A DNA stretch of 26,070 nt from a virus: positions 1-26,070 of the IMG/VR virus record IMGVR_UViG_3300029448_000369; one strand, 5' to 3'. The notes under the pieces were generated by a model, which saw only the letters and a list, made by a program, of their open reading frames with translations, was not told where the DNA came from and searched no databases. Of this stretch, positions 1,006-19,878 are shown piece by piece (the first letter of the stretch is position 1; the number at the start of each line of letters is the position of its first letter). The position numbers and the translations under genes are program-made.

Positions 1006-1587
1006 CTATCCTCCAAACGCTGGTCCTACTCTTGATGATATAGGAACATTTGTTGTACCAGCCTTGCTTACTCCTTGAAATGCACTTGCTGAATAACCAG
1101 AACCTCCACCAAGGCTCATCCCACTAAAAGCACCTGCCAAACCAACTTGAGCAACATTCATAACTAATCCTGTAATCGCTTGAGTTTGAGCTTGTCTAGC
1201 AGCCATAGCTCCTCGGTACTCTAAATTTCTAGCTTCTCTTTCTGATTGTTCAATAGCTAAGAAAGCATCTTGTTCTAATATACCAACATCTAATGCTGCG
1301 GGTCTTAATACTTGTTGTTCGCTAAACACCGCTGCCGATCCTACTTCTGGAAGAACACCACTTGAATATCCTCTGGCAAGATTGCTGGCTAACGCTCTTT
1401 TTGTTCGTCTTAGTATTTCATTGGCACTTTCTTTAGCTTTAACGGCTTCAACTCTACCCTCAAGTCGTTTATTGCGAGCCTGAGCTTCCATTATGGTTTT
1501 TTGTACTTTGCCACTTGTAACAGTTGAGCGATACTGTAAAACAGATCCTAATACACCAAGCCCTCCAAATATTGCTCCTGCACTCAT
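1006..1587 (-). CDS. gp14-like internal virion protein
   Basis: This 193-residue protein is close to T7 gp14 (196 residues). It starts with a glycine-rich hydrophobic stretch (residues 3-16, AIFGGLGVLGSVLQ). A long basic, Ala/Gln/Arg-rich helix follows (about 25-140), then a second hydrophobic segment and a Gly/Ser tail (about 140-193), the usual shape of small podovirus core proteins that insert into the host membrane on ejection. Its ATG overlaps the stop of the tail tubular B gene as ATGA, and its own stop abuts the next ATG, so translation is probably coupled. The call comes from length, composition and gene order. Confidence 0.72.
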   Translation of the reverse strand: MSAGAIFGGLGVLGSVLQYRSTVTSGKVQKTIMEAQARNKRLEGRVEAVKAKESANEILRRTKRALASNLARGYSSGVLPEVGSAAVFSEQQVLRPAALDVGILEQDAFLAIEQSEREARNLEYRGAMAARQAQTQAITGLVMNVAQVGLAGAFSGMSLGGGSGYSASAFQGVSKAGTTNVPISSRVGPAFGG

Positions 1588-3617
1588 TGGCTACCACTTA
1601 CGCTATACTCTAAACTTAACAAAGTAAAAAACAAAGGTTTCGTTTGAGTGATTGATATTTGAGCTTCTTCGCTAAATCCTAAAATCGGAGTTACACGCTT
1701 ACGCCCTGTGAATAATGTTTCAGAAGAATCAAGAGTGTAGGGGAACTGTTTAAGACTCACCTCATTACCATTGATTGCAATATTCTGTGTTTGATTTAAA
1801 ACAGGCGATACCGCCACAATTCTTTTTTTTCTGCCGACCATTGTACCTGAAGCAAGTTTAGGTTCGGCGGGTAGGGTCTTAGCTAATACATCATGATGCA
1901 ACCCTATCTCTACATAAGTGGTAGGAACTTGATCAATTGTAATCGCACCTGATGAAACAGTTTTTTCCCCTAAGAAAATATCATCTCTTACCACTTCAAC
2001 AGTCTTAGCTTCTAAATGACTCAAACCAGAAACTGTTGTGGAGGAGGGTTTGTTACCATCGGCAGATCCGTCAAACAGCTGAAACGATGCATCTGTTGTT
2101 CTGTCATCGTCTAATCGTTCGATATAATGTTTTGTACTACTGTTGATGGTTCTTTTAACAATCACATAAATATCATCAATATCCACCGCACAATCTTCGT
2201 ATGTACCATCGGTTATAAACTCACTTGGAGCCACAACCTTTTGTGATCGGTGTACAGAATACGCTGCCATTGTTCCGTCAGTACCATTGACTATCATAAG
2301 TAAATCGCCATCATCTGTAGAGGTTGCTCTTCTAAAAGCAATCTTAACAGGACTTTTTAGCAAATGACTCGATAGCAAAGAGATATTGTTAGATTGATAG
2401 GATAATTCTGCATCGCTAAATAAAAACTCCCGCAACGCTTTACCGGATCTTTGTAAGAAAATCGTACCGCCTTCAACGGATACAGGCATAATATTAGGTT
2501 TAGATCCAGAAGAAGTTGCAGCTTTAATGGTTAGATTGCCAGGAGTTATCGGTTGCCCTTCACCTTGCTGGACAAAAAATTCATTGCCTGTTGTAAAGAT
2601 TTGCAAATCTCTGCCTGAACGAATGCCCGTAATTGAATTAACAGAATTGTTGCTTAAAATTGCGAATATAGCATCATCGTCTAAACCTTCTGCTTCAAGA
2701 AAATTAAAAAAGTCAGATACCTTTGATCCGAATAAAGCCGAAGGTAAACTCTTCGATCCACCAAAATATAATCGTCCTTCATGAAAGACCCCTGTTTTTG
2801 GAAATCCTTTAGTCGATGAAAATACATCTTCGTATCCCGCTTCGAGTTCCCAGTTTGTTGCTGTGATTGCAGAAGTGTTAAAGAACGGAATCTCTACATT
2901 GACTTTAATAGATGTAGCGGATACAAACTCTACAATTCTTGCTCGACCAAATCCGTTTTTAACATTGATATATTGATTGACATTGCCACTAGAAAAAATA
3001 CTTGCACTTGCTGAGATGGTTGCAGTTCCGTCAATAGAAGAGGGTGTAATATCTCCTGAAGGTTCAGATACCGATTTTGTAAAAGCAAATTTTGGCGAAG
3101 TAATTGATATTGTACTTGCTGTCCAGGTCGTATTATTAGCACCTCTTACAATCGATAACGGAGCTAGATCTTCATGCATCAAAATTAAAGTGTCCGCAGA
3201 TTGTGTAAAGGTAATCGCATCAAAAGAGATATCGCCTAACGATACAGTTAAATAATTATTACCACTTGAATTTATATTGGTCTGCAATACGCCTTGTCTA
3301 AAGACAAACATCTTGGCATTGTTGGTAGTATTCGTTGATAATTTAACAAAGACCAGCATGAACGAATCTACACTTGAAAACTCAAACGGAATCAAACGAA
3401 GTCCTTGTTGAGCCGTAAACGATCCGCCTAAGTCAGAAGATACATCCAGTAAAAATTGTTGTCCTGGCCTTCTTTCAATCGCACCTTGCGGAATACATAC
3501 AATGTTGGTGGCTTTTTCTAAACCCGCCTGATACTGAGTGATGTCCACTCTACCTTTAACAAGCGGATCAAACTCGCCCATAGTGAATGATGATTGATAC
3601 TGAACAATTCGACTCAT
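1584..3617 (-). CDS. Tail tubular protein B (nozzle), T7 gp12-like
   Basis: This 677-residue protein is slightly shorter than T7 gp12 (794). The N-terminus has the signature of this family: SSFTMGEFDPLVKGRVDI, then a QYQAGLEKATN segment and PQGAIERRPGQ (about residues 9-53). The rest is beta-rich with many Thr and Ser, as expected for the beta-propeller nozzle at the tip of a short tail. It overlaps the end of tail tubular A by four bases (ATGA), with GAGG just upstream of its ATG. Together with tail tubular A it would form the tail tube below the portal. Confidence 0.9.
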   Translation of the reverse strand: MSRIVQYQSSFTMGEFDPLVKGRVDITQYQAGLEKATNIVCIPQGAIERRPGQQFLLDVSSDLGGSFTAQQGLRLIPFEFSSVDSFMLVFVKLSTNTTNNAKMFVFRQGVLQTNINSSGNNYLTVSLGDISFDAITFTQSADTLILMHEDLAPLSIVRGANNTTWTASTISITSPKFAFTKSVSEPSGDITPSSIDGTATISASASIFSSGNVNQYINVKNGFGRARIVEFVSATSIKVNVEIPFFNTSAITATNWELEAGYEDVFSSTKGFPKTGVFHEGRLYFGGSKSLPSALFGSKVSDFFNFLEAEGLDDDAIFAILSNNSVNSITGIRSGRDLQIFTTGNEFFVQQGEGQPITPGNLTIKAATSSGSKPNIMPVSVEGGTIFLQRSGKALREFLFSDAELSYQSNNISLLSSHLLKSPVKIAFRRATSTDDGDLLMIVNGTDGTMAAYSVHRSQKVVAPSEFITDGTYEDCAVDIDDIYVIVKRTINSSTKHYIERLDDDRTTDASFQLFDGSADGNKPSSTTVSGLSHLEAKTVEVVRDDIFLGEKTVSSGAITIDQVPTTYVEIGLHHDVLAKTLPAEPKLASGTMVGRKKRIVAVSPVLNQTQNIAINGNEVSLKQFPYTLDSSETLFTGRKRVTPILGFSEEAQISITQTKPLFFTLLSLEYSVSGSQ

Positions 3618-9709: not shown

Positions 9710-11220
9710 TACGCTAACGGATCAAAGTCGATCTTAGCTACCATCGGTTGTAACTGTCTGGACTTTCCTCTGGTCATGGTACGATATTCAGAACCGAGTA
9801 AACAATACTGAGCTGCATCTCCGATATGCGAATGTTCGTTTTTATTTGGTGTATCCTTAAACCGCTCTTGCCCAGCACCGATTGCCACTCGTTTAAAATG
9901 ATAACCCCCCGCTAAAGATTTTCTTAAACGGACACATTTTCGGTCTATTCTGAATCCTGGTTTGCCATCAATCAATCGAGTCATCGGCATGGCGAGTGCT
10001 TCTCGTCTGGTTTTAAAATTATTAGTCGCACAGGGTTTAGCAAGGATGCCATGAGTTTTTAAATGATCAAACGAAGTATCTTCATTCAAAGTTGATCTTT
10101 GACTACCCGCTGGATCACCAAATACGACAATATCATTTTTAGGAAAAAATCGATTAATATCTTCTTTAAGTAAAATAGCAAAGCGTTCTAATCCCATATC
10201 GTATGTCACAATTTCATGAATCACCCTCCATACGCCTTTGTGATCTCTTTGAGCAAATACCGCAGCGGGTGTTAAACCAAAGTCTAATCCTATCTGCACA
10301 GGCACTCCGTCTAAAATTTCGCAATCTTCAGTCATAGATGAATCGTCAAACTCTGGCGTAACAGGACGACCTTCTTGAACATAAGTAAACTTGCCTTCTG
10401 CATAACAGCGAATCCAATCAAGATTCTTTCCGCCTAGTAATTGTTCGTAATATCCAACGGGAAGATTATTTAAATTTTCTGCTTTATCATTGGTCTGCCA
10501 CCATTTACCGCCACCAAAAACAAATCCCTGAGCTTCAGGCATTTCTTGGGGAACGTCTTGAGCTTCGAATACGCCTGGCGGTTGTCTAAAAAATTTCCAG
10601 GCAAACTTTCCTCTCGGTGGTTCTTTTTCCGATAACCGATAAATGTAGTGATCATCATCTGGAGGGTTGGTATCTAAAATAACACCACGCCAAGTTGGTC
10701 CTCCATCTTCTTTGCTTGGATATCTTCCGACTCTATGCGTTGTTCCGTCAATCACCGCTTTTGGTAATTCTCTACATTCATTAATCCAAGCACCTGTTAT
10801 TTCTAGTGATAATAATTTTCTGGTATCTTTAGGCTGATCGAGTGCCAGAAAGATTACTTCGCAATCTATTCCCGCAGCTCCTTCTCTGGAGGGTAGTTTG
10901 ATGTGGTGTGTAATGGGTGGCGAATGATGAACAGGACCATAGATATGTTCTGGAAATAACTCTAACCAAGTTTTTAGCGTAGTGGTTTTTAACATCGGAT
11001 AGGAGTTTCTTACAATCACAAATCTTGTTCGCTTGATTCCATCTCTTGGACTCGGTTTTTGTTGTATCGCTCTTTTAAAGATCTCAGCACAACAAGCATA
11101 GGATTTACCCGAACCAACAGGACCGATTAATCCTCTGACAAAAGATTTATCCTGTAAAAATTTCCAGATCGTAGGCGATTTGCTAAAGTCAAGTTTAAGT
11201 CCTGGTATGTTATTCTGCAT
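9709..11220 (-). CDS. Terminase large subunit
   Basis: This is the 503-residue packaging motor. Walker A is GPVGSGKS (33-40). The Walker B region ends in ITGAWINECREL with the catalytic Glu at 148. The nuclease domain has QIGLDFGLTP (Asp 313), IVVFGDPAGS (Asp 369) and HSHIGDAAQY (Asp 468), the three acidic positions of an RNase-H-like terminase nuclease. It is T7 gp19-like, slightly shorter than T7's 586. The ATG directly follows the TAG of the nested frame (TAG|ATG), has AGGAG eight bases upstream, and overlaps the methyltransferase end by 11 bases. It works with the portal at 6874-8451 and the small subunit at 12213-12620. Confidence 0.95.
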   Translation of the reverse strand: MQNNIPGLKLDFSKSPTIWKFLQDKSFVRGLIGPVGSGKSYACCAEIFKRAIQQKPSPRDGIKRTRFVIVRNSYPMLKTTTLKTWLELFPEHIYGPVHHSPPITHHIKLPSREGAAGIDCEVIFLALDQPKDTRKLLSLEITGAWINECRELPKAVIDGTTHRVGRYPSKEDGGPTWRGVILDTNPPDDDHYIYRLSEKEPPRGKFAWKFFRQPPGVFEAQDVPQEMPEAQGFVFGGGKWWQTNDKAENLNNLPVGYYEQLLGGKNLDWIRCYAEGKFTYVQEGRPVTPEFDDSSMTEDCEILDGVPVQIGLDFGLTPAAVFAQRDHKGVWRVIHEIVTYDMGLERFAILLKEDINRFFPKNDIVVFGDPAGSQRSTLNEDTSFDHLKTHGILAKPCATNNFKTRREALAMPMTRLIDGKPGFRIDRKCVRLRKSLAGGYHFKRVAIGAGQERFKDTPNKNEHSHIGDAAQYCLLGSEYRTMTRGKSRQLQPMVAKIDFDPLA

Positions 11221-12229
11221 CTATGATACTCCTGAAGATTTGTTCTGCGATTTGTGGCACGATTGAGTTTCCGAGTGATTTGATTCTGTTGGTTCTATCT
11301 GAGTGTAATTCATAGGATACCCCATTAGGAACTCCACAAAGTTCGGATTGAGTCTGCCACCAGCTACGGCATTCAGCGGTTTTGTTTTTCTTTTCATCTG
11401 ACTTGGGTTGCCACTGTTTTTTGAATCTTGAACTGTCGGAGTCGGATACATTCCTTCGGTTTGCAACTTGTTCACCACATCGTTCAGTTTCGCCCCAAAC
11501 TTTGTCTTTGTGTTCTTGCGAGTGACTGTCCATCCACTCTTGTTTTGACTCACTGAGTCTGGTGGCGCTACCACATCCATCTGACAACTCGCCGATGGTG
11601 TTGGATACATCTTGACTGTGTCGGCTAGGTTTAGACTGTGACTGTCCTTGCCGTCCTTGGTCATCCGTCTTGTTCCTTTGTCGTTCAGTACCATGTTCGG
11701 ATGTTCTATCTCTTGAGTCGTTGGTGTTGGATACATTTTCTCCGATGATCCAGATTCTTTTTCTTTGGTGCCAAGCACCGATGCCTGAAGCTGGAATAAC
11801 AAGACATTGGACTTGGAAACCCTCTTTTTCCAAATCTTCTTGTATCTGTCGCAAGATTGTACCATTGGAGATGTTAACAATGCCGTCAACATTTTCTCCA
11901 ATAAACCATTTCGGTTTGCACTCGGCAACAACTCTAATAGTTTCATCCCACAAGTATCTGTCGTCATCTTTGCCTTTTCTTTTTCCAGCAACAGAGAAAG
12001 GTTGGCAGGGAAATCCTCCTGAAATAATGGTAGCTGAACCAAAGTCTTTTCCATTAACTTTCCTTATATCGTCTATGATCGGAACAACGCTCCAATGCTT
12101 TTTTAAAATTTTTTGACAAAATTCATCCTTCTCTACAAACCCTATTGTTTCAATTCCATTTCGTTTAGCACCTAAACTAAAACCTCCTATACCTGAAAAC
12201 AGATCTAATAATTTATGATTTGTCCTCAC
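11210..12229 (-). CDS. DNA (cytosine-5) methyltransferase
   Basis: This 339-residue enzyme has the main motifs of C5 methyltransferases: I, LLDLFSGIGGFSLG (7-20, SAM binding); IV, GGFPCQPFSVAGKRKG (71-86, catalytic Cys 75); VI, ENV (112-114); VIII, HQRKRIWIIG (154-163); X, LGNSIVPQIAEQI (319-331). It would put a 5-methyl group on cytosine in phage DNA, probably to avoid host restriction or to mark the genome. The target-recognition region (about 165-300) is unusually polar and repetitive, with VSNTN, VSNTI and VSDSD, because the same bases encode the nested frame. It starts with GTG at 12229, overlaps the small terminase end by 17 bases and terL by 11. Confidence 0.93.
   Translation of the reverse strand: MRTNHKLLDLFSGIGGFSLGAKRNGIETIGFVEKDEFCQKILKKHWSVVPIIDDIRKVNGKDFGSATIISGGFPCQPFSVAGKRKGKDDDRYLWDETIRVVAECKPKWFIGENVDGIVNISNGTILRQIQEDLEKEGFQVQCLVIPASGIGAWHQRKRIWIIGENVSNTNDSRDRTSEHGTERQRNKTDDQGRQGQSQSKPSRHSQDVSNTIGELSDGCGSATRLSESKQEWMDSHSQEHKDKVWGETERCGEQVANRRNVSDSDSSRFKKQWQPKSDEKKNKTAECRSWWQTQSELCGVPNGVSYELHSDRTNRIKSLGNSIVPQIAEQIFRSIIDAE
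11221..12054 (-). CDS. Nested 277-residue protein inside the methyltransferase gene (YPTP-repeat family)
   Basis: This frame lies entirely within the methyltransferase gene, same strand, different frame. AAGGA lies six bases before its ATG, and its TAG touches the terL ATG. The protein begins MEKTLVQLPLFQEDFPANLS. It has a helical part (GLLEKMLTALLTS, 50-62), then VLLFQLQASVLGTKEKESG, three MYPTP repeats (107, 149, 202), and a C-terminal LNPNFVEFLMGYPMNYTQIEP (235-255). From memory, many phage proteins share the FPAN...ESG...PTP...LNP.WVEWLMGFP pattern, also beside or overlapping cytosine methyltransferases. The last block resembles C5 motif IX (LT..E...LQGFP). Three repeats are conserved by synonymous change in this frame. 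Function unknown; a partner or alternative C-terminus of the methyltransferase is possible. Confidence 0.7.
   Translation of the reverse strand: MEKTLVQLPLFQEDFPANLSLLLEKEKAKMTTDTCGMKLLELLPSANRNGLLEKMLTALLTSPMVQSCDRYKKIWKKRVSKSNVLLFQLQASVLGTKEKESGSSEKMYPTPTTQEIEHPNMVLNDKGTRRMTKDGKDSHSLNLADTVKMYPTPSASCQMDVVAPPDSVSQNKSGWTVTRKNTKTKFGAKLNDVVNKLQTEGMYPTPTVQDSKNSGNPSQMKRKTKPLNAVAGGRLNPNFVEFLMGYPMNYTQIEPTESNHSETQSCHKSQNKSSGVS
11435..11736 (-). repeat. Three in-frame 17-base repeats encoding MYPTP / VS(N/D)
   Basis: Copies at 11720-11736, 11594-11610 and 11435-11451 read ATGTATCCAACACCAAC, ATGTATCCAACACCATC and ATGTATCCGACTCCGAC. They are spaced 42 and 53 codons apart, so all are in the same register. 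In the nested frame each reads Met-Tyr-Pro-Thr-Pro; in the methyltransferase frame they read VSNTN, VSNTI and VSDSD. Confidence 0.85.
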
Positions 12230-15832: not shown

Positions 15833-16117
15833 ATGAAAATAGAACAAAAATCAGAGGATGTTGTTTATATTACAATCAAGGGTTGGGTTTATTATATCGA
15901 TGATTCAACTGACGAACAAATAATTCAAAAGTGGAAAAATAAATATTCACAAAAAGATTATGAGATGTTTAAAGAATCACTACAACTTTCTATTACTGCA
16001 CCAAACGAAAAACAAAGTAAACAATGTTTAGAAATTGCAAATGAAATGTCCGACCTTTTTCCAAAAAATATTATAGAAAAAGCAAAAAAAGAAGTTGAGT
16101 TTTATATTAATAACTAA
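15833..16117 (+). CDS. Unknown small protein at start of rightward operon
   Basis: This 94-residue, charged protein starts MKIEQKSEDVVYITIKGWVYY; DDSTDEQIIQKWKNKYSQKDYEMF follows, then a helical Glu/Lys-rich end. No domain or membrane helix is recognised. AAAGGA lies before the ATG. It is the first rightward gene, 29 bases before the recombinase. A role in controlling or aiding the recombinase is possible by position only. Confidence 0.65.
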   Translation: MKIEQKSEDVVYITIKGWVYYIDDSTDEQIIQKWKNKYSQKDYEMFKESLQLSITAPNEKQSKQCLEIANEMSDLFPKNIIEKAKKEVEFYINN

Positions 16118-16145
16118 TTATCGAAAGATAAAGAAGGGAAACATA

Positions 16146-16964
16146 ATGAAAACATTATTTAAAAACACAGAAGGCAAGGAGCATACAGGCGAGTATGTTC
16201 TTTATGGCAGAGTGTCTACGGAGGATCAAGACTGTATGCGACAGATTCATGCAGCAAAAAAATATTTAAATGGAGGAGACTACAAACTTACAATCTTTAC
16301 AGAAAAGCCCATGTCAGGTGCAACCGATCCGTATAAAAGAGAAGAGCTGATGAAGGCCGTTGAGTATTGTGTTGAACATAAAGCAACACTTGTCTTTGCA
16401 GATCTGGAGCGATTATGTCGTAAGATGTGGATGACTCTTCGATTTCTTGATGAAGTGATAGAACAAAATAAAATTAACTTTATTGTCTGCAATGATCCCA
16501 CCATCTCAGAAAATCCTATGCGACTTCAGATGAAGGCAATGTTTTCAGAGTGGGAACGCCAAGAAATTTCTAGGCGAACCAAAGAAACACTTGGTGCATA
16601 CCAGGAACAAATCAAAGAGAAGGGATACTTCACCTCTAAAGATAAAGTTGTTAACAATAAAGTGATCAAAGGTCGCAAGATTAAAAAGCTAGGGGTTCAT
16701 AGTAAGATGGACAAAGCCAGGCAAAAGTCAGGGGAGGTTGCGAGTGCTGAAGCGGATCGTTTTGCTAAAAGTATTTACCTTTATCTGAACGATGCCTATA
16801 CCCATTGTTCTTCTTTAAGTGAGATGAGCGAATTTTTAAATGAGCGTAAAGTTCCCACACCCGCACAACTACGAGAGAAACCAAACAAAAATGCAAAGTG
16901 GTATCCATCGAGCGTAAAAAATATGTTAACACGCTTAAAGATAGGAGAGTATAATGATAACTAA
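16146..16964 (+). CDS. Serine recombinase (short integrase/resolvase family)
   Basis: The 272-residue product has the resolvase domain. YGRVSTEDQ (20-28) carries the catalytic Ser 24 and its Arg 22. The ADLERLCRK segment matches the active-site arginine motif, and an E-helix (FSEWERQEISRRTKETL) follows. The C-terminal part has EADRFAKSIYLYLNDA, LSEMSEFLNERKVPTPAQ and WYPSSVKNMLTRL, like the recombinase domain that reads DNA sites. It is shorter than large serine integrases but longer than Tn3 resolvases. The start at 16146 fits GAAGGG eight bases upstream. It probably integrates and excises the phage; inversion or dimer resolution are alternatives. It overlaps the next gene by 11 bases. Confidence 0.88.
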   Translation: MKTLFKNTEGKEHTGEYVLYGRVSTEDQDCMRQIHAAKKYLNGGDYKLTIFTEKPMSGATDPYKREELMKAVEYCVEHKATLVFADLERLCRKMWMTLRFLDEVIEQNKINFIVCNDPTISENPMRLQMKAMFSEWERQEISRRTKETLGAYQEQIKEKGYFTSKDKVVNNKVIKGRKIKKLGVHSKMDKARQKSGEVASAEADRFAKSIYLYLNDAYTHCSSLSEMSEFLNERKVPTPAQLREKPNKNAKWYPSSVKNMLTRLKIGEYNDN

Positions 16965-17421
16965 CTTTCCACATGGTAAAATCTGGGCAGCATATCTGTC
17001 CGATAAATATGCCAATATTGGATCTGAATCAGATGTATTATGTTCTGGCAAATTTAATGCCCATGAAAAAAAAATACTCAAATATTTTATAACTCCTGCA
17101 AAATTTACAAGCTGGCTATTCATAATGAATAGGTATTATCAAAATATTTTAATTACCAGAAGTGATCTGGAAAAACATACGGCTAATTCGCAATCGACAG
17201 TTTTAAGATTGTGTAATGAATGTGTCGAAGCAGGATATTTAATTGATAAACGTAAGGTTCATCAGAATGTTACGACTTATATTGTGTCAGATGAGATGGT
17301 AAATTTATGGGAAAAATATATTGATTACCGACTCGATCACATCATAAAATTTGAAATGGATCTGTCGATTCGTTTACGAAAAACGGAACAGACAGTATTC
17401 AAAAAGAAGATAGGAAAATAA
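16954..17421 (+). CDS. Winged-helix regulator
   Basis: This 155-residue protein has a MarR-like winged-helix in the middle: KKILKYFITPAKFTSWLF, then NILITRSDLEKHTANSQSTVLRLCNECVEAGYLIDKRKVHQNVTTYIV (about 64-112), and a C-terminal helix with EKYIDYRLDHIIKFEMDLSI that could dimerise. It overlaps the recombinase end by 11 bases. A repressor or recombination-direction factor would fit here; the sequence does not decide which. Confidence 0.68.
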   Translation: MITNFPHGKIWAAYLSDKYANIGSESDVLCSGKFNAHEKKILKYFITPAKFTSWLFIMNRYYQNILITRSDLEKHTANSQSTVLRLCNECVEAGYLIDKRKVHQNVTTYIVSDEMVNLWEKYIDYRLDHIIKFEMDLSIRLRKTEQTVFKKKIGK

Positions 17422-17457
17422 TATGGTTATGCTACATTTTAAAAACAGGAGGAAAAG

Positions 17458-17784
17458 ATGATAAGTGAAAAATATTTACACGCACTTATTAGAGCGGAGA
17501 AGAAATCAAAGTCACAGCAAAACGATGAGGACTATCGAAAGTACCAAAAGTTCATGCGATCAGCCAGTCGGATAACTGTACCTTTGACCAACTTAAAAAA
17601 CATAAAAACCGCTCATGCCATGTTGCAGTTATTAACGGAGGAGCTGGATACAATTATTAAAAGTGACCATAGTATTTTTGAGAAAGTTTTTCTTGCCGGT
17701 TATAGTGTTACGGCTTGTTCCCAGCACTTAAAACAGGCGGCTGATCCCAAGCATCATGGCGAACATTTTAAAGGCACACGCTAG
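17458..17784 (+). CDS. Unknown basic helical protein
   Basis: The 108-residue product begins MISEKYLHALIRAEKKSKSQ and is rich in Lys and Ser, with IKTAHAMLQLLTEELDTII and FEKVFLAGYSVTACSQHLKQA helices. It has no recognised family. An excellent AGGAGG lies before the ATG. It ends just before an approximately 85-base intergenic stretch with a palindrome, so it closes the first rightward sub-operon. Confidence 0.65.
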   Translation: MISEKYLHALIRAEKKSKSQQNDEDYRKYQKFMRSASRITVPLTNLKNIKTAHAMLQLLTEELDTIIKSDHSIFEKVFLAGYSVTACSQHLKQAADPKHHGEHFKGTR

Positions 17785-17794
17785 ATGGACGGCA

Positions 17795-17808
17795 TACTAT
17801 ATATAGTA
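17795..17808. promoter_or_regulatory. Perfect palindrome, possible operator/promoter
   Basis: TACTATATATAGTA is a perfect 14-base dyad upstream of a small membrane protein gene. It runs into a TATAGTAGG block (17802-17810) followed by TCGGTATTTTTT. The block at 15780 (TATAGTAGG then TATTTTTACC) is alike, so the two may be the same promoter or operator kind. Confidence 0.4.
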
Positions 17809-17871
17809 GGTCGGTATTTTTTAACCTCTAGGTGTTGTATAACCCTTAACAAACCAACAAGGAGCAGACTC

Positions 17872-18159
17872 ATGGTGCATTACACCCAGAAACCTTTACG
17901 TAAAGAGTATACCCAACATTATAATATATATTACGAAAAGTCAGTTAAAACAACTACATATAGTAGTTTTACTAACTGGTTAATCAGACCATTTAAACAC
18001 CTAAAATCTTATATTATTACCACACAAAAAACAAGGTTTGCAGAAACTTTATTAGACTGTTTTTCTATAAGTTTAGTTTTTGTTTTATTCTATTTTTTAT
18101 CTATCTTTTTATGTGCGATTGACGATCAATGTTCAGCACTTTACATGGGAGGTGTTTGA
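17872..18159 (+). CDS. Small single-span membrane protein
   Basis: The 95-residue product has a polar, basic N-terminal half (MVHYTQKPLRKEYTQHY...) and one strong membrane helix (LDCFSISLVFVLFYFLSIFL, about 61-81), then a short tail. GGAG lies seven bases before the ATG at 17872. The frame is open further upstream to 17785, but that includes the palindrome and no ribosome site. Its stop overlaps the exonuclease start (TGATG). Function unknown; envelope alteration or exclusion is possible. Confidence 0.62.
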   Translation: MVHYTQKPLRKEYTQHYNIYYEKSVKTTTYSSFTNWLIRPFKHLKSYIITTQKTRFAETLLDCFSISLVFVLFYFLSIFLCAIDDQCSALYMGGV

Positions 18160-19109
18160 TGTCAGCTCCCACAAATAAATATAGCAAAGACGGATTTGAA
18201 ATCGGTGCTTCTAAAGTTCCAACTATTGTTCTCGGTCAAAATGATTTTGGTTTGACACGAGAAGATATAAGAAAAACTTTTGTAGAAATTATAAATAATC
18301 CTGATGTGATTCAGCTTGAAAGTAAACAAAATCAAAACGCCAAAGATCGAGGAAACTATCTGGAGGATGGTATCGCTTATTGGGTATCCGATACTTTAGA
18401 TTTTTTATGTAAAGGTGAAATGACTGTTTCATTTGTGAAACCAAAAGACGCATATCGTTTACCTAAATATAAAATGGCAGCATCGCTTGATGGTATATTA
18501 GAAGTGCATGGCGGATCAATACAATATGACGACCCTCAAACGGGAAAAACTTTTACATTATCTGGCAAAGGTGTCTGTGAAATAAAAACACAAGGCTATA
18601 ACGATCATGTAACCTATGAACATATTCTTCAGCTCCAGGCTCAGATGTTAGTATCTGGATTTAAGTGGGGTGTTATTGGACATCTTGGTCCTCGTTTAAA
18701 AATGCAGATGTTTGTCTTTCAATCAAGCAAAGAAATTCAGGCTAAGATTATTGAGCGAGTCAAAGATTTTTGGCGAAGAGTAGAAAAGAACACACCTTAT
18801 CCAATCATTGCTGAGTCAGAAGAGAAAGTTTTTTCGGATTGGTCAAACGATGATAAAGGATTAACTCAGCTCTCTAATGATTATGATCTTGCTAAAGATG
18901 AAATAGAAAAATGGACGGCTACAAAAAATCAGGTAGGCAACGCCATTAAATCTATACTTAAACAAGAGAACTGTAACTATGTCAAACTTAGAGAAAAGCA
19001 AATAGCCTGTGAACTGATTACCCGAAAAGCCACAGTTGAAAAAATTGTTCCGGCTAAACCCGCAAGTCAATATGAAAAATTAACAGTTAAAGGAATTAGT
19101 CATGAGTGA
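18159..19109 (+). CDS. YqaJ/lambda-exonuclease-like recombination nuclease
   Basis: This 316-residue protein has the PD-(D/E)XK core of phage 5'-3' exonucleases. RGNYLEDGIAYW carries Glu 69, KMAASLDGIL carries Asp 111, and GVCEIKTQGYND carries Glu 141 and Lys 143. The helix YEHILQLQAQMLVSG with Gln 160/162 follows, as in YqaJ enzymes. The last third is helical. GGAGG lies before ATG 18159; the frame upstream to 18129 has no site. It overlaps by eight bases an ERF annealase gene, the classic exonuclease/annealing pair that trims double-strand ends and joins single strands. Confidence 0.88.
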   Translation: MSAPTNKYSKDGFEIGASKVPTIVLGQNDFGLTREDIRKTFVEIINNPDVIQLESKQNQNAKDRGNYLEDGIAYWVSDTLDFLCKGEMTVSFVKPKDAYRLPKYKMAASLDGILEVHGGSIQYDDPQTGKTFTLSGKGVCEIKTQGYNDHVTYEHILQLQAQMLVSGFKWGVIGHLGPRLKMQMFVFQSSKEIQAKIIERVKDFWRRVEKNTPYPIIAESEEKVFSDWSNDDKGLTQLSNDYDLAKDEIEKWTATKNQVGNAIKSILKQENCNYVKLREKQIACELITRKATVEKIVPAKPASQYEKLTVKGISHE

Positions 19110-19878
19110 AAAAACAAAAATAACTCAACCTAAAAGTCTACGAGAAGCACTAAACTTGTTTCAAAAACAAGGAATAGCTGCAAAGAAAGATCAAAACAAT
19201 CCGTTTCATAAAAGTAAATACGCTTCTCTTCAAGAAGTTATTCAGGCGGTAAACGAAGCTGCTCAGTTTGGTCTGTCATTTACACAAAAAATAGATTACA
19301 CAACCTCTGCAACTGAACATGGCACATTCACGGATATGTGGATTGAAACAATAATAAGTTTTAATGGTAGTGAAGAAAAGTTGGTTTCTAAGTATCCTAT
19401 TATTCCTCAAAAAAATATGTTTGATGATAGCAAGCAACTTGGATCAGCCATTACTTATGCTAAAAGATATGCTCTACAATCAATTTATGGCATACCAAGT
19501 GAGGATGATGATGGTAATAAAAACTTTTATCAAAAAGGAACTCCTTACAAGACCACCAGTAAACAAAAGCAAGGCAAGATGACTCCTAATACTCAGGATG
19601 TATTAAACCGAATAGACGAGTCTAATAAGCCTGTTTATACACTTCAGCTTCCTGGCAATCAAAAAAAAGACCATGATTCGCTGAACTCGTTAGGTTTAAC
19701 TTTAAACGATTTAGTTTTACACATTATGAGTGATCCTGAAACCGATAAAACAGACAAACTAAAAAAAATTAAACAAGCTTATACTGTAAATAGCAAAGTC
19801 ATTGAACAATTATCAAGACATGATGCCGAGTTGTTAGACGAAATTGAAAAAAAAATTAAGAGGTTTGAAAATGCCTGA
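19102..19878 (+). CDS. ERF-family single-strand annealing protein
   Basis: This 258-residue protein has the ERF signature: NPFHKSKYASLQEVIQAV (33-50), AQFGLSFTQKI (54-64), KQLGSAITYAKRYALQSIYG (111-130) and SEDDDGNK (133-140). The C-terminal half is polar and helical with Lys/Glu, probably for oligomer or partner binding. It overlaps the exonuclease gene by eight bases. ERF proteins anneal complementary single strands and support recombination, circularisation and replication of phage genomes. Confidence 0.9.
   Translation: MSEKTKITQPKSLREALNLFQKQGIAAKKDQNNPFHKSKYASLQEVIQAVNEAAQFGLSFTQKIDYTTSATEHGTFTDMWIETIISFNGSEEKLVSKYPIIPQKNMFDDSKQLGSAITYAKRYALQSIYGIPSEDDDGNKNFYQKGTPYKTTSKQKQGKMTPNTQDVLNRIDESNKPVYTLQLPGNQKKDHDSLNSLGLTLNDLVLHIMSDPETDKTDKLKKIKQAYTVNSKVIEQLSRHDAELLDEIEKKIKRFENA

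Follow-up and report, generated by a model that had tools for sequence, protein, structure and literature searches.

A phage cytosine-C5 DNA methyltransferase gene overlapped in the second frame by a gene that probably encodes its exchangeable specificity subunit

The gene for the small chain of the two-polypeptide cytosine-C5 DNA methyltransferase M.EcoHK31I lies inside the gene for the large chain, in another reading frame. The larger chain of this enzyme (YGGCCR) bears motifs I-VIII and X, the smaller one bears motif IX, and the predicted recognition domain (TRD) has been placed in the larger chain (PMC3404938). In M.AquI (CYCGRG), motifs I-VIII form one chain, and the distal variable region together with motifs IX and X forms the other (PMC3404938). 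Solved C5 enzymes make their specific DNA contacts through a small domain that comprises motif IX and the variable region (PMC3404938). C5 methyltransferases of Bacillus phages carry tandem recognition domains and thereby address several targets (PMC8936443).

The locus described here lies in a stretch of viral DNA of 26,070 nucleotides (IMG/VR record IMGVR_UViG_3300029448_000369, positions 1 to 26,070), which is referred to as the window. In it, a phage DNA-cytosine methyltransferase gene (alpha) is overlapped by a second gene (beta) in the other frame (Table 1). Judged from sequence, the locus is laid out like a single-chain C5 methyltransferase, except that the recognition region and motif IX are read in the +1 frame, behind an internal start, and the first frame continues to motif X.

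The two reading frames and the start of the nested gene

Alpha carries motifs I-VIII and X of the C5 cytosine DNA methyltransferases (PF00145), including the invariant PCQ and ENV. It departs from the usual monomeric C5 form in that motif IX and a recognition domain are not found in the same chain: alpha residues 170-309 are mostly unalignable among relatives, and motif IX sits in beta. AF2 models alpha with confidence over most of residues 1-169 and over about 320-338, and pLDDT stays below 50 between residues 170 and 309. The best fold match, M.HhaI, concerns the large domain only, with 166 alignment columns of a 327-residue chain. The phase of the overlap is such that alpha codon position 1 corresponds to beta position 3, alpha 2 to beta 1 and alpha 3 to beta 2. 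A Pfam search returned no family for beta; the window protein matches phrog_1008 ('DNA methyltransferase') over most of its length (E=9.8e-29, that is ~1e-28; profile positions 34-289 of 329).

Table 1. Features of the alpha/beta locus in the window.
Feature	Position	Strand	Evidence
Alpha, catalytic subunit, 339 aa, GTG start, C5 cytosine methyltransferase motifs I-VIII and X	11210..12229	(-)	PF00145 E=5e-56; phrog_363 E=3e-72; M.HhaI fold match 166 of 327 residues
Beta, putative nested subunit, 277 aa, +1 phase relative to alpha	11221..12054	(-)	phrog_1008 match; open phase in relatives; downstream selection
Shine-Dalgarno-like AAGGA, 6 nt 5' of beta ATG	12061..12065	(-)	sequence and relatives
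Alpha motifs I-VIII (catalytic core)	11735..12214	(-)	conserved columns; high AF2 confidence for most of alpha 1-169
N-terminal domain of beta (residues 1-102), in the overlap with alpha motifs IV-VIII	11749..12054	(-)	conserved in 54 sequences; weak match (profile 63-103) to free-standing beta of L174
Beta cassette type 3 (MYPTPTTQEIEHPNM...SHSLNLADTVK)	11611..11736	(-)	17-base header 11736-11720; 44 loci with the same cassette
Beta cassette type 4 (MYPTPSASCQMDVV...FGAKLNDVVNK)	11452..11610	(-)	header 11610-11594; 32 loci with the same cassette
Beta terminal cassette type 0	11362..11451	(-)	header 11451-11435; type-0 cluster, 76 members
Beta motif IX: GGRLNPNFVEFLMGYPMNYT (beta 232-251)	11302..11361	(-)	invariant or almost invariant columns; alignment to the motif IX that single-chain phage methyltransferases have in frame
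Alpha 170-309, read-through linker, predicted disordered	11303..11722	(-)	pLDDT <50; residues hardly constrained over most of it; frame kept open
Alpha motif X (RTNRIKSLGNSIVPQIAEQI)	11237..11296	(-)	invariant columns, 40 sequences

With beta as the query, a scan of IMG/VR yielded 70 new loci, and a second scan with alpha as the query yielded 79 (149 in all, with some contigs common to both). The IMG/VR loci, phage records and the window gave 126 distinct genes; L001, in which alpha is interrupted, was left out. In every one of them (126/126) the beta frame is open and lies in the same +1 phase. Under alpha-synonymous codon shuffling beta stays open in 0.2% of cases, with a mean of 5.5 stops. 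Beta-synonymous shuffling of the cassette region leaves alpha open just as rarely (0.2%, mean 6.6 stops) and alpha must therefore also be kept open in this region; the shuffles in both directions rule out chance as the explanation of the open frame. Beyond the viral records, alpha and beta overlap in the same phase at 77 of 80 loci from bacterial and archaeal genomes. A plasmid search brought up only five weak places, and among 395 genomes of the class to which a Flavobacteriales MAG (L174, see below) belongs, beta matches occur in four besides its own.

Several phage records (L254-L260) annotate alpha only, e.g. Synechococcus S-H1, Bacteroides BKO1-TP3, Podoviridae ctgrD200 and Rhizobium RHph_N2, and a beta-phase frame of 219-357 residues is open inside the alpha genes of these phages. 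In Paenibacillus phages both frames are annotated as DNA-cytosine methyltransferase; the nested gene has thus been noticed by annotators. In L001 (KT997847.1), a frame change, for which sequencing error and decay are both possible, interrupts alpha near its N-terminus; beta is intact there and annotated 'putative cytosine-specific methyltransferase'.

Relatives carry AAAGGAG, GAGGAGG and similar sequences before the beta start, and between subfamilies the location of this element shifts together with the start. A Shine-Dalgarno-like element precedes the beta start in 94 of 110 genes, compared with 62.9 expected from alpha-synonymous reshuffling and with a frequency of 26% at other ATGs. These signals bear on the possibility that beta is made without separate initiation, by a programmed frameshift in the alpha message that would lead the chain from motif VIII into the cassettes and motif IX. 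The order of the elements in the DNA (I-VIII, cassettes, IX, X) is indeed colinear with a single-chain enzyme. We nevertheless consider a frameshift improbable, since a start codon with a Shine-Dalgarno sequence stands before beta in most relatives, a second shift back would be required to reach motif X, and a shift at motif VIII would skip the beta N-terminal domain, which is conserved and weakly matched in a free-standing gene. According to the preferred reading, ribosomes would also initiate at the internal ATG with its own Shine-Dalgarno sequence and translate beta in the +1 frame.

Constraint on the two frames, the 17-base repeat and the cassettes

Rates of change were compared in 37 non-overlapping pairs of relatives with 68-97% nucleotide identity, aligned as DNA blind to frame. 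At alpha codon positions 1/2/3 they amount to.069/.045/.173 in the alpha-only N-terminal part,.059/.025/.105 in the overlap over motifs IV-VIII,.273/.177/.176 in the cassette region (motif VIII to LNP),.097/.035/.055 in the motif-IX zone (LNP to the beta stop) and.096/.045/.202 in the alpha-only C-terminal part. In the cassette region, the rate at position 1 exceeds that at position 3 in 30 of 34 informative pairs. By these rates, the alpha reading is the more constrained one as far as motif VIII and the beta reading from there to the beta stop, and alpha through the cassette region is kept open and nearly unconstrained in its residues. The original prediction that the nested protein has been kept, at least over the repeat motif and perhaps more than the methyltransferase reading, holds in the relatives; beta does not dominate everywhere, as alpha does so over motifs IV-VIII.

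That prediction started from three copies of a 17-base repeat on the minus strand, at 11736-11720 (ATGTATCCAACACCAAC), 11610-11594 (ATGTATCCAACACCATC) and 11451-11435 (ATGTATCCGACTCCGAC). The beta reading is MYPTP in all three, and the alpha readings are VSNTN, VSNTI and VSDSD, respectively. The outer copies differ at exactly three bases, all of them beta third positions (CCA/CCG, ACA/ACT, CCA/CCG) and at the same time alpha first positions, where they turn N-T-N into D-S-D. The description of these differences as silent in the nested frame and replacing in the methyltransferase frame is exact in positions and bases; the middle copy has one extra difference at base 16 that is replacing in beta (T to S) as well as in alpha (N to I). 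They had also been put forward as direct evidence, within one sequence, for selection on the nested protein. For this purpose three differences are weak, because all of them would fall on beta third positions by chance in about 1 in 27 cases, even with the frame chosen beforehand, and because the repeat had been picked out for being conserved. The inference itself is decisively confirmed by the relatives.

When repeat copies are compared within genes, 67 of 111 differences are at beta third positions in 35 representative genes with at least two copies (P = 7e-9), and 197 of 326 in all 101 genes. At the PTP sites of 46 non-overlapping pairs, alpha-replacing/beta-silent changes reach 0.305 per weighted site (104 changes) and alpha-silent/beta-replacing changes 0.072 (22 changes), in support of the claim that over this motif selection preserves the nested protein more than the methyltransferase frame; the pattern that would speak for the reverse, PTP changing freely with VSN kept, was not seen in these pairs. 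Sites picked by the alpha motif V[SA][ND], a choice that biases in the opposite way to that of PTP, point in the same direction (0.314 vs 0.105). The alpha residues found under PTP are all those that the beta codons permit, namely N, D, Y and H at one position and S, T, A and P at another. PTP itself occurs 2.75 times per beta on average, compared with 0.09 in residue-shuffled betas, and downstream of alpha codon 150 there are 325 fuzzy matches to the 17-mer in the beta frame versus 5 in the other two phases.

As judged by its distribution in beta, the 17-base repeat is the header of interchangeable cassettes. From LFQL to LNP, beta consists of modules that each start with (M/L)(Y/W/F)PTP and follow one another at distances of 25-55 residues, the common types being 29-53 residues long. 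Clustering of 579 modules gave recurring types, which appear in the order 3-4-0 in the window. The clustering is rough (single linkage, boundaries set by regular expression) and the count of different architectures is therefore an upper estimate. Type 3 was found at 44 loci in differing positions and neighbourhoods, with an identity of 0.73 in the beta frame versus 0.39 in the alpha frame, and in all six cassette types tested the beta reading is better conserved than the alpha reading. Among 312 gene pairs with catalytic cores at least 93% identical, which are not independent of one another and give a result of clear direction, 286 differ in cassette order, and different orders occur even among pairs whose core protein sequences are identical (100%). 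The cassettes are, on this evidence, swapped between relatives, as expected of target-recognition modules. One relative (L057, ORF 1498-3010) has a beta of 504 residues with a helix-turn-helix-like insert (IKTLSEQTNIKKTTIEHWFR) between cassettes. Elsewhere in the window, at 16095-19878 (+), a serine recombinase (DNA invertase family), a RecE-like exonuclease and an Erf-like annealing protein are encoded.

A repeat that heads exchangeable cassettes, in a phage with RecE-like and Erf-like recombination proteins, might also be a DNA-level element, i.e. a recombination site between cassettes, with protein conservation as a secondary effect. A DNA site would keep all positions alike, yet in the header the beta third positions vary freely (0.305 per site) and the beta-replacing sites do not, which makes this explanation very unlikely. 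In its preferred role as the start of each protein cassette the repeat may still help recombination, and short-homology recombination by the phage's own proteins could help cassette exchange.

Motif IX, natural controls and the proposed enzyme

The motif IX of beta can be compared directly with that of single-chain phage methyltransferases, with which the beta profile aligns over 17 columns at 47% identity. The mycobacteriophages Fushigi and Papez have motifs I-VIII, the EFYEWLMGLPRGW form of motif IX and motif X in one chain, and they lack a long beta-phase frame. In the relative L161, alpha stops after motif VIII, and beta continues in frame via motif IX into motif X; Pfam did not find motifs IX-X in this fused chain. 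L174 contains a free-standing beta downstream of alpha, in addition to a shortened nested beta. The free-standing copy, known from this one MAG contig, carries the first cassette type of the window, type 3 (PTPTTQENEHNNIVLNDKFRRVSKNGVTHSLNLADTV), and the alpha-phase frame there holds many stops. By its arrangement it is a natural control for the overlap. The nested remnant (L174:2097-2628) has kept the N-terminal half and lost the cassettes, the alpha linker being correspondingly short, which looks like a relocation of beta to a gene of its own.

These arrangements bear on the question whether beta could be a real protein that is not a methyltransferase subunit, for instance an unrelated overlapping protein. 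Its lack of a recognised fold would be compatible with such a role. Motif IX, though, is present on beta, absent from alpha and in frame in single-chain relatives, in L161 beta and motif X form one chain, and phrog_1008 is annotated as DNA methyltransferase, so that we hold an unrelated protein to be highly unlikely. That the nested frame is a functionless by-product of the alpha sequence, as its lack of a Pfam family and the many records annotating only alpha might suggest, is scarcely credible and refuted as far as sequence allows by openness, start signals, cassette conservation, the inversion of the codon-position rates and the existence of a free-standing copy.

The explanation that we regard as likely is a two-polypeptide phage cytosine-C5 DNA methyltransferase resembling M.EcoHK31I, with both subunits encoded by one DNA stretch. 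Cofactor binding and catalysis would fall to alpha, with motifs I-VIII and X, and beta would contribute motif IX and the series of cassettes between its N-terminal domain and motif IX. Together the two would form the active enzyme, which would methylate phage DNA, probably as a protection against host restriction. In the cassette region the alpha frame would mainly need to stay open to reach motif X; the differences between repeat copies would be beta-silent and alpha-replacing because the alpha residues there follow the requirements of beta.

By position, the beta cassettes would replace the variable recognition region of C5 enzymes, and beta is probably the swappable DNA-recognition (specificity) subunit. 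The cassettes are the most likely candidates for the target-recognition modules, because no part of alpha is folded where a recognition domain would be expected and because cassettes are exchanged between genes with near-identical catalytic cores. Modelled alone with AF2, beta gives a poor structure (pLDDT 59.6), with pLDDT about 88 over residues 161-200 in cassette type 4; Foldseek with this model returned nothing usable and no structural neighbour, and sequence and profile searches of the PDB with beta gave no relatives. Since the model is poor and lacks a structural neighbour, the proposed recognition role is drawn from position and exchange and not from fold. The chances appear about even that in a widespread phage methyltransferase an exchangeable recognition-cassette array lies wholly in the second frame of the catalytic subunit and that phages rewrite their methylation targets by swapping cassettes; the catalytic frame would then be an open disordered linker, and one enzyme could counter several restriction specificities at once.

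Comparison with described enzymes

The locus is an unusually clear case of DNA shared by two frames, in which the dominant constraint passes from one to the other at motif VIII, and it offers a free-standing copy as a control as well as single-chain relatives for comparison. Our findings suggest that a gene often missed by annotation sets the specificity of a common phage methyltransferase family. Should the cassettes be recognition modules, the nested gene could serve both to read off methylation targets and to test them. Literature searches that covered few subscription journals brought up no paper on a conserved nested overlap or on cassettes in phage cytosine methyltransferases. The methyltransferase passages of an article on frame transitions (PMC3711429) do not concern this overlap.

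The phrog_1008 entry does not say that its members nest in alpha. With M.AquI the window system has in common that the catalytic motifs I-VIII are on one chain and motif IX is on the other; it differs in that motif X, located on the small chain of M.AquI, is part of alpha, and only the relative L161 has an M.AquI-like partition. To our knowledge, the multispecific Bacillus phage enzymes described are single chains read in one frame. They resemble the window system in having tandem modules at the place of the recognition domain, the window modules being putative recognition modules, and differ from it in that the window modules lie in a nested gene.

In motif partition the window system is like M.EcoHK31I, as motifs I-VIII and X are found on alpha and motif IX on beta, and the small-chain gene is likewise nested in the large-chain gene in the other frame. 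The predicted recognition domain of M.EcoHK31I is in its large chain, whereas here constraint and conservation reside in beta and the corresponding stretch of alpha is predicted to be disordered. In addition, an array of cassettes and their exchange are not reported for M.EcoHK31I in PMC3404938. Because the placement of the recognition domain differs, the window system is best described not as a proven member of the M.EcoHK31I type but as a new variant similar to it.
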